A stretch of DNA of 52,650 bases from Candidatus Hydrogenedentota bacterium (GTDB lineage: Bacteria; Hydrogenedentota; Hydrogenedentia; Hydrogenedentales; SLHB01), in the NCBI GenBank assembly GCA_019695095.1, contig JAIBAQ010000019.1, positions 1 through 52,650 on the forward strand, given 5' to 3'. The notes under the pieces were generated by a model. That model saw nothing but the letters and a program-made list of their open reading frames with translations, had not been told where the DNA came from and searched no databases. The number at the start of each line of letters is the position of its first letter. The stretch's first letter is position 1. Of this stretch, positions 43,516-48,247 are shown one piece after another. A program made the translations under genes and the position numbers.

Positions 43516-44721
43516 ATGACCAGCTTTCTCACCGCACTTTTCCTGTGCGCCGCCGCCAACGCCCCGCTGTACGAACAGCAACTGGTCTTTGAACCCGATC
43601 CCAAACACAACCACAGTTCCAGCATCGTCGAAACGCCGAACGGCGATTTGCTCGTCTGCTGGTTCCACGGCTCCGGTGAGCGCTCTTCCGACGATGTGCT
43701 TGTCGCGGGCGCGCGCAAACGTAAAGGCGACGACAAATGGTCGGCCCCATTTATCATGGCAGACACGCCCAACCTGCCGGACTGCAATCCGGTCATGTTC
43801 GTCGATCCACGCGGTACGCTGTGGCTCTTTTGGGTGACCATCCAGAACAACGAGTGGGGGGGAGCGCTGCTCAAATACCGGACCTCCACCGACTATGCGC
43901 AAGATGGTCCACCCAAATGGCAATGGCAGGATGTCGTTCATTGCCGCCCCCTCGACCTCGAAGACGATTTCCTCGAAGCCGTAAAACAAGCCGAAATCCA
44001 GTACGCACCCCAATTGAAAGCGGACGAAAAGATGGCCAAGGGCCTCAACGAATGGAAGACTAAAGCGAAGGACAAACTCGCCCAGCGTCTTGGTTGGATG
44101 CCCCGCATTCATCCCATACTTCTCGGCGAAAATCGGATTATGCTTGGACTCTACTCCGACGTGTTCAATTGCTCAATCGCCGCCTTCACCGAAGATTGGG
44201 GCGAGAACTGGACCTTCAGCCAGCCCATCATCAGTTACGAGCTAGGCAACATCCAGCCCGCATTTGTCACCAAAAAGAACGGCGACATTGTTGCTTTCAT
44301 GCGCGACAACGGTATCCCCAAGTGCATCCGCACGTCCGTTTCCGCCGACCACGGCATTAACTGGACGCCTACCGCGACAACTGCGTTACCCAATCCCGGT
44401 TCCAGCGTCGATTGCGTGGGACTCAAGAGCGGTAGTTGGGTACTGATTTGCAACGACACTCAAGACGGACGCCACATCCTCTCGGCCTACCTCTCCGAAG
44501 ACGAAGGGGCAACTTGGATACGCCGCCGCCGCTTCGAGAGTTTCATCAAAGACCAAGGCTCCGGGTCCTACCCGTCGCTAATCCAAGCCGCTGACGGCAC
44601 GCTCCATCTGACCTATTCCTATGTCAGCCAAGAGTTCAAGGGATCGGCCATCAAACACGTCCACTTCGACGAGGCCTGGCTCCGCGACGGCGAACAGATT
44701 TCTCAACCCACGACAAAGTGA
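43516..44721 (+). CDS. Exported sialidase-like (BNR/Asp-box) protein
   Basis: 401 residues. It begins with a short signal peptide (MTSFLTALFLCAAANA). Three Asp-box-like turns are seen: TEDWGENWTF, SADHGINWTP and SEDEGATWIR. With HNHSSSIVETPNGDLLVCWFHG and a six-bladed propeller length, this fits the sialidase/exo-alpha-sialidase-like family (BNR repeats). Many family members act on other glycans, so sialidase activity is not certain; the RIP motif of true sialidases is not evident. GGAG lies 8 nt before the ATG. It converges on the RfbD-like gene. Confidence 0.8.
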   Translation: MTSFLTALFLCAAANAPLYEQQLVFEPDPKHNHSSSIVETPNGDLLVCWFHGSGERSSDDVLVAGARKRKGDDKWSAPFIMADTPNLPDCNPVMFVDPRGTLWLFWVTIQNNEWGGALLKYRTSTDYAQDGPPKWQWQDVVHCRPLDLEDDFLEAVKQAEIQYAPQLKADEKMAKGLNEWKTKAKDKLAQRLGWMPRIHPILLGENRIMLGLYSDVFNCSIAAFTEDWGENWTFSQPIISYELGNIQPAFVTKKNGDIVAFMRDNGIPKCIRTSVSADHGINWTPTATTALPNPGSSVDCVGLKSGSWVLICNDTQDGRHILSAYLSEDEGATWIRRRRFESFIKDQGSGSYPSLIQAADGTLHLTYSYVSQEFKGSAIKHVHFDEAWLRDGEQISQPTTK

Positions 44722-46231: not shown

Positions 46232-48247
46232 ATGCGTTACTCTGCCCTGTTTGCCCTGATCGTGGGTGCCCTCGTTTTCCCCTTTGCTGCAACCCCTGAA
46301 CAAGCCCAAGACCCGACGCCGCTTCCTGCCGTTGCCAAGAACTTCCGCCTCGATGACCACCTGGGGAAATCCCATGAACTGTCGCGTTTTCGCGACGCCA
46401 AGGCCATCGTACTCTTCTTCGCGGGAAACGGTTGTCCCATCGTTCGCAAGTCCATCCCCGCGTTGAAAGAAATCCGCGATGCCTACGCCCCTAAGGGCGT
46501 GGTCTTCCTCATGATTAACGGCAATCCCAATGACGACCGGGCCAGTGTCGCAAAAGAAGCTCAAGAGTTCGCAGTCGATATGCCCGTTCTACTCGACAGC
46601 GCCCAACTGGTCACCAAGACGCTCGGCGTGACTCGAACGGCTGAGTGCCTCGTCATCGACATGAAAAACTGGTCCATCGCATACCGAGGCGCGCTCGACG
46701 ACCGCCTAGATTACGGTGCCGAGAAGCCAGCAGCGGGACATGCGTGGCTCAAATCGGCGCTCGACTCTGTTCTGGCCGGCACCCCCGTCGAGACTCCACG
46801 CACCGAAACCAAGGGCTGCATCATCGACATGCTCCCCGAACCCAAGCACCTCTCCTATTCAAACAACGTCGCCCCAATTCTCAAAAAGAAATGTGTCCAG
46901 TGCCATTCCGAAGGCGAAATCGGCCCCTTCTCCATGGACAGTTACGACGACATCGCCGGACGCAAACGCATGATGCGCGAAGTCCTTCTGACGAGACGGA
47001 TGCCTCCTTGGCACGCCGATCCCCATTTCGGCGTCTTCGGCAATGACAACTCCCTCAAACAGGACGAGCTGCGCACACTAGTCGCATGGCTTGACGCCGG
47101 AGCCCCTCGCGGCGAGGGCGACGACCCCTTACTCGACGCGCCCAAACCCCGGCTGACGGAATGGCCGCTCGGCCAACCCGATATCGTCTTGCCCATGCCG
47201 CAGGAAATGCAGATACCCGCTTCCGGAGTCGTTGAGTACCAGTACTTCGAAGTACCCTTCCCCGGCCAGGAGGATATCTACGTCCGCGCCGCGGACGTGC
47301 TCCCCGGCAATCGCCAGGTACTGCACCATGTTCTCGTGTTCATCCAATACCCCGATCGCCTCGCAGCGCAACAGCCTGAGTTTGAAGGCGGACTCGAAGG
47401 GTATTTCGCGGGTTACGTACCCGGACAGGCCCCCGTCGAATTTCCCAAAGGCACGGCGAAATTCGTCCCCGCCGGTTCGACCTTTGTTTTCCAGGTCCAC
47501 TACAGCCCAATTGGAAAACCCGTAACCGACCTTTCCAAGCTCGGTCTTTACCTCTACAAAGGGAAACAGCCCCAGGAACTCCTCACTAAAGCCGCGTACA
47601 ACACCGATTTCGCGATACCCCCCAACGATGCGGCTTACGCTACAACAGCCACGCATCGGATCCTAAGAGACACGCTGCTATACGAACTCGCTCCGCACAT
47701 GCACTACCGCGGCAAGGATTTCCAATACCAGGCCATCTATCCCGACGGTTCCTCCGAAATCCTGCTGTCGGTTCCCAAATACGACTTCAATTGGCAGACG
47801 CTCTATCGCTTTAAGGAGCCGAAGCTCCTGCCCGCGGGCACGCGCATCGTCTGCACCGGCGCCTTCGACAACTCATCCGCCAACCCAAGCAATCCCGACC
47901 CCAACACGTGGGTCGGATTCGGTGAACAGACTTTCGAAGAGATGTTCATCGGTTATATGGGCTATTCCTATGTTCCCGGCGGCAACGAGACCAGCCTGCC
48001 AACCGGCCTCGGTGCGGGCAAGCTCATCACGCAAGAAACGCTCACCAACACCGAATGGCAGTGGGGGAGATACCGTATCCGCTTTCTGGAAGGCGGTGTC
48101 ATGGCCGCTGGCGAACGCGCTCGCGGCTCGTGGGAGATTCAGGACGGACACGTCCTGATAAAGGCAGGCGACCGCGAATTCAAACTCACGATCAAAGATG
48201 ATTCGCTGCTTACCCGCGATGGAAAGCCACTGCAATGCCTGTCGTGA
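46232..48247 (+). CDS. Redoxin / cytochrome c / copper type II monooxygenase-like fusion
   Basis: 671 residues, exported (signal 1-25). Residues ~33-185 are a thioredoxin-like domain with AGNGCPIVRKSIPAL (Cys68, only one cysteine). Residues ~205-290 are a c-type heme domain: CVQCH (221-225), with Met257 in TRRMPPWHADP as the likely axial ligand. Residues ~310-600 match the PHM/DBH copper fold: His365-His366 (LHHVLVF), His423 (FQVHYSP), His489/His491 (APHMHYRG) and Met571 (EEMFIGYMGY). These correspond in order to the six Cu ligands of peptidylglycine monooxygenase. It is probably a periplasmic or surface oxidase/hydroxylase; the substrate is unknown. GGAG precedes the ATG at 46232. Confidence 0.85.
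   Translation: MRYSALFALIVGALVFPFAATPEQAQDPTPLPAVAKNFRLDDHLGKSHELSRFRDAKAIVLFFAGNGCPIVRKSIPALKEIRDAYAPKGVVFLMINGNPNDDRASVAKEAQEFAVDMPVLLDSAQLVTKTLGVTRTAECLVIDMKNWSIAYRGALDDRLDYGAEKPAAGHAWLKSALDSVLAGTPVETPRTETKGCIIDMLPEPKHLSYSNNVAPILKKKCVQCHSEGEIGPFSMDSYDDIAGRKRMMREVLLTRRMPPWHADPHFGVFGNDNSLKQDELRTLVAWLDAGAPRGEGDDPLLDAPKPRLTEWPLGQPDIVLPMPQEMQIPASGVVEYQYFEVPFPGQEDIYVRAADVLPGNRQVLHHVLVFIQYPDRLAAQQPEFEGGLEGYFAGYVPGQAPVEFPKGTAKFVPAGSTFVFQVHYSPIGKPVTDLSKLGLYLYKGKQPQELLTKAAYNTDFAIPPNDAAYATTATHRILRDTLLYELAPHMHYRGKDFQYQAIYPDGSSEILLSVPKYDFNWQTLYRFKEPKLLPAGTRIVCTGAFDNSSANPSNPDPNTWVGFGEQTFEEMFIGYMGYSYVPGGNETSLPTGLGAGKLITQETLTNTEWQWGRYRIRFLEGGVMAAGERARGSWEIQDGHVLIKAGDREFKLTIKDDSLLTRDGKPLQCLS

Follow-up and report, generated by a model that had tools for sequence, protein, structure and literature searches.

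What does a single exported protein do that joins a redoxin, a c-type heme and a copper core resembling that of peptidylglycine alpha-hydroxylating monooxygenase (PHM), and which of these parts would supply the copper with electrons? The gene in question lies at positions 46232-48247 of the window, by which we mean the whole stretch of 52,650 nucleotides that was analysed, located on contig C19 of a genome of 6.77 Mb. We favour, with a probability of roughly 0.68, an exported and self-sufficient copper monooxygenase with a PHM/DBH-type core that is fed by its own cytochrome c, wherein the redoxin is an accessory.

Gene architecture and the copper core

The open reading frame begins with an ATG codon, is preceded 8 nucleotides upstream by the sequence GGAG, contains no internal stops and encodes 671 amino acids on the plus strand, as do all the features given below. 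Residues 1-27 (46232-46312) read directly as a hydrophobic export signal, MRYSALFALIVGALVFPFAA, of which residues 3-15 are modelled by AlphaFold2 as a helix at low confidence. The hydrophobic N-terminus and the uninterrupted reading frame support the single exported chain proposed in a preliminary description of this DNA and, judged from sequence, the protein is exported and probably periplasmic. The order of redoxin, CxxCH heme and PHM/DBH-like domains claimed there is likewise borne out by Pfam, a family profile and the predicted fold, and its residue numbers for the CVQCH motif and the six copper ligands are exact.

A redoxin domain occupies residues 35-200 (46334-46831), includes Cys68 and Cys196, and scores 54 bits (2.1e-14) with Pfam Redoxin PF08534, whose cut-off is 26.6. 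It is followed by a mono-heme c domain at residues 207-290 (46850-47101), in which C221-V-Q-C224-H225 forms a CxxCH heme attachment motif and Met257, within MPPW, is the likely sixth, distal ligand. The Pfam cytochrome models remain below their cut-offs for this protein (best 23.1 versus 27), with Haem_bd and Cytochrome_CBB3 as sub-threshold matches. Next come the dicopper domain (residues 310-580; 47159-47971) and a small extra beta domain (residues 601-671; 48032-48244) that has no Pfam match. Among relatives, this C-terminal domain of about 70 residues is seen in Hydrogenedentota members only. A paralogue of it with weak DUF5640/META similarity forms the end of a small lipoprotein-like open reading frame elsewhere in the same genome (L005:1237-1743).

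The copper domain is not confidently identified by plain Pfam and NCBIfam scans, and therefore a family profile and the fold are needed to recognize it. The Pfam model PF03712 (Cu2_monooxygen / Cu2_monoox_C) gives the window protein 17.2-19.4 bits, which is below a cut-off of 23 that is a detection threshold rather than a biochemical criterion, so the domain search once proposed as a check would not by itself confirm the assignment. In contrast, a profile of residues 306-582 from 38 relatives has human DBH (4zel) as its sole match in the PDB, with an E-value of 3.6e-6. In this alignment, H365, H366, H423, H489 and H491 fall on H262, H263, H333, H412 and H414 when residues are counted along the HMM alignment with a chain offset of 39 residues, and these are the five copper histidines of DBH (PMC4846438).

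The CuH ligands would thus be His365-His366 (47324-47329; PHM H107/H108) and His423 (47498-47500; PHM H172), and the CuM ligands would include the two histidines of His489-Met490-His491 (47696-47704; PHM H242/H244). The remaining CuM ligand, Met571 (47942-47944; DBH M487, PHM M314), lies outside the alignment to DBH. It is assigned because methionine is present in all 159 sequences that cover this position and because of its spacing from the HxH motif, which is 80 residues compared with 73 in DBH and 70 in PHM. The proposal that six ligands match the order and approximate spacing of those of PHM therefore stands on profile alignment for the five histidines, and on invariance and spacing for the methionine.

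An AlphaFold2 model of the complete protein, computed with 59 window and locus sequences, has a pLDDT of 91.2 and a pTM of 0.84. When it was compared with known folds by Foldseek, the first matches in the PDB were PHM (1.3e-12; 1phm, 1opm and 8dsl) and then DBH (5.6e-12), and the model includes the double jelly-roll core of this superfamily. The fold is held in common with the PHM catalytic core at a TM-score of about 0.6 on the PHM length, despite only 15-18% sequence identity. In addition, Gln421, located two residues before the third CuH histidine, corresponds to PHM Gln170 and is glutamine in 117 of 163 family sequences. On the profile match and the predicted fold, we judge the copper domain to be of the PHM/DBH type, as had been claimed.

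The window protein differs from PHM in being bacterial and in its fused heme c and redoxin. DBH also carries an extra N-terminal domain, termed DOMON, which has been superposed on the cytochrome domain of cellobiose dehydrogenase (PMC4846438). However, the DOMON domain has no c-type heme, and DBH uses ascorbate, is rich in disulfides and is a tetramer.

A large family with invariant heme and copper ligands

A pattern search of genome contigs gave at least 593 matches to the fusion architecture, so the gene belongs to a large family. In about 160 relatives, some with as little as roughly 30% identity, the heme CxxCH motif, Met257 and all six copper ligands never vary where the sequence covers them, a degree of conservation that is far beyond chance. 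C221, C224, H225 and Met257, as well as H365, H366 and H423, are found in all of 163 sequences, and H489, H491 and M571 in every sequence that covers them. This count leaves out L167_16655, an aberrant relative of 913 amino acids in which the copper ligands fail to align. Function could have changed in a minority of the family.

The nearest named relatives of the window protein are from Candidatus Hydrogenedentota, and so the host does not belong to a planctomycete-type phylum. The architecture had been tied to such genomes; relatives are found in Planctomycetota, and others in Verrucomicrobiota, Bacteroidota, Gammaproteobacteria and Omnitrophota. The family is under-annotated, and the window protein itself is below the Pfam cut-off for both its heme and its copper domains. 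We found no published account of the redoxin-heme-copper fusion and no biochemistry for any member in the open-access literature. This large bacterial family is apparently unstudied, and the earlier remark that no substrate is defined agrees with the lack of a characterised member there.

Within Hydrogenedentota, the heme travels with the copper domain. PF03712 exceeds its cut-off for relatives in 13 of 68 Hydrogenedentota genomes, and all 48 matches (two of them cut by contig ends) are members of the heme-fused family. Among these bacteria are also short cytochrome c-PHM proteins (e.g. L023-L027) that have the heme, the dicopper core and identical ligands but no redoxin. In family f4 and in genome G018, this short form has multiplied, reaching about 20 paralogues in a genome.

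An optional redoxin and the source of electrons

The redoxin fits neither the CxxC thioredoxins nor the canonical peroxiredoxins. The site expected of thioredoxins or of ResA-TlpA proteins is replaced by C68-P-I-V, with a single cysteine at the active-site position, and the peroxiredoxin motif Px3(T/S)xxC is absent, since AGNGC68 places a glycine three residues before Cys68. The Foldseek matches of this part are instead 3u5r, 2ywi and 2cvb/2ywo (TM about 0.8), which carry a cysteine in a (N/G)xCPxV-type motif and a second cysteine in a C-terminal GCxI motif, as does the window redoxin. Those proteins stand alone and have no assigned function, whereas the window redoxin is fused to heme and copper domains.

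The 164 homologues that combine heme and copper domains fall into three classes: a redoxin that carries Cys68 is present in 98, a redoxin fold lacking this cysteine in 17, and no redoxin in 49. These classes were set by domain HMM, since the apparent Cys-less redoxins of loci L056 and L057 are artefacts of upstream read-through, and at least one of the 49, locus L022, seems to have its redoxin in a broken frame of its own. Of the 98 redoxins that carry Cys68, 96 also have Cys196, which is missing from all 17 that lack Cys68 (Fisher 2e-18). A FastTree phylogeny built from only the heme-copper part yields six independent contrasts, in every one of which Cys196 is lost together with Cys68 (sign test p 0.031). 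All 17 homologues without Cys68 keep every heme and copper ligand. These observations suggest that the two cysteines act as a pair that is dispensable to the heme-copper core, and we read them as a candidate redox pair that would serve something other than an obligate supply of electrons to copper.

Two loci are worth describing with respect to the redoxin. At L022 (G031:C311:3667-5456), the separate redoxin frame has an internal TGA and precedes an intact heme-copper part, which reflects either disruption of the gene or a mistake in assembly. At L043 (2550-7812; G042:C85), there are three redoxin-heme-copper genes in tandem, of which the first and third have lost the redoxin cysteine and the middle one retains it.

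To our knowledge, PHM-type coppers have been studied almost exclusively in the animal enzymes, which draw their electrons from ascorbate. For the window protein, the electrons are probably delivered by the heme rather than by vitamin C or the redoxin thiols. In the mechanism that we propose, a His/Met-ligated c-type heme (C221/C224/H225 and M257) would take single electrons from the respiratory chain and hand them to the coppers, in the place that ascorbate has in the animal enzymes. The host genome encodes a heme-copper oxidase and cytochrome c assembly proteins, which fits an aerobic donor that is linked to respiration. H365, H366 and H423 would hold the electron-transfer copper and H489, H491 and M571 the oxygen-activating copper, where a C-H bond of the substrate may be hydroxylated. 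Perhaps the redoxin carries out thiol or peroxide chemistry with Cys68 and Cys196 off the obligate electron path; it might guard against hydrogen peroxide from uncoupled turnover, or maintain the assembly of the heme or copper site. In vivo, the coppers could still receive their electrons from ascorbate or some other reductant.

Another possibility is that the protein is no hydroxylase, and that the PHM scaffold serves a copper- or heme-dependent oxidase or peroxidase, a protein that handles nitric oxide or nitrite, or a sensor. According to PDB titles, azide, nitrite and CO all bind to the coppers of PHM; the paralogue families are large, and neither a substrate nor a catabolic partner has come to light, all of which would suit such a role. 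However, all six ligands of the two sites, including the soft methionine of the oxygen site, are kept wherever the stretch is present, and we consider a function of this kind unlikely.

The preliminary description also envisaged an electron route to copper from a thiol or heme domain, and of these the heme is the better supported. A thiol-driven enzyme would admit electrons at the Cys68/Cys196 dithiol and pass them through the heme to copper. The redoxin is fused immediately N-terminal to the heme domain, and the conservation of both cysteines in nearly every redoxin that has Cys68 indicates that the pair is probably active. As a necessary route, though, it conflicts with the 49 of 164 members that have no redoxin and with the loss of both cysteines at least six independent times, in 17 members, with the heme and copper ligands intact. 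Moreover, the reduction of a heme in one-electron steps by a dithiol is not typical of the redoxin fold. Entry of electrons through the thiols is therefore decidedly improbable, and the heme-fed monooxygenase is preferred.

The wider proposal stands at about even odds. Under it, there would be a large uncharacterised class of bacterial PHM/DBH-type copper hydroxylases that are linked to respiration through a c-type heme of their own, self-sufficient in electrons without ascorbate, and in which a redoxin has on several occasions been gained, or lost and disarmed. PHM itself is widespread in eukaryotes (PMC8812541). If the proposal is true, the fused heme donor would offer a bacterial test system for electron delivery to two separated coppers, and possibly biocatalysts that work without added ascorbate. 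It would also point to a new kind of oxidation chemistry in the periplasm of Hydrogenedentota, planctomycetes and verrucomicrobia.

Substrate and gene neighbourhood

The substrate is probably something other than the C-terminal glycine of a peptide. In PHM, Arg240 binds the peptide carboxylate, and its position, which we take to be the one two before the first histidine of the HxH motif, is A487 in the window protein. Across the family this position is F, S, M, T or A, with arginine in 3 of 161 sequences. There is no PAL lyase domain within the 671 amino acids and no general lyase neighbour. Given the missing arginine and the lack of a conserved lyase partner, peptide amidation is unlikely and the window protein probably has no such activity. 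A true amidating PHM that acts with a separate lyase would account for the common fold and copper ligands, and for the lyase-like propellers near the gene in two neighbourhoods, but it is very nearly excluded by the rarity of arginine at the Arg240 position, the absence of a general lyase neighbour, and the single cysteine of the window copper domain, owing to which the PHM disulfides are absent.

Those two propellers are NHL-type and six-bladed, reminiscent of the PAM lyase, and are found at L084:4357-5466 and L150:1335-5267. As they occur in 2 of 88 loci, we rejected them as a general PAL partner. A cluster that is sulfatase-like, as named from sequence, is present at 12 of the 88 loci and probably reflects the genomic background of these phyla. 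Neither the 88 neighbourhoods nor about 40 further loci revealed a conserved gene partner. A BNR-repeat (sialidase-like) protein is encoded near the gene in the window (43516-44721) and on a Limisphaerales contig (L090:494-1840), which, at 2 of 88 loci, is probably due to chance.

The locus L167:1-20000 (G052:C134) has four heme-copper paralogues within 20 kb, together with the aberrant 913-amino-acid relative, which retains its CxxCH motif. The paralogues adjoin genes for COX1, a cytochrome c that is matched in two stretches, a PQQ dehydrogenase, a TPP enzyme and DUF2911 proteins. At this one locus, the cluster suggests a periplasmic oxidative metabolism.
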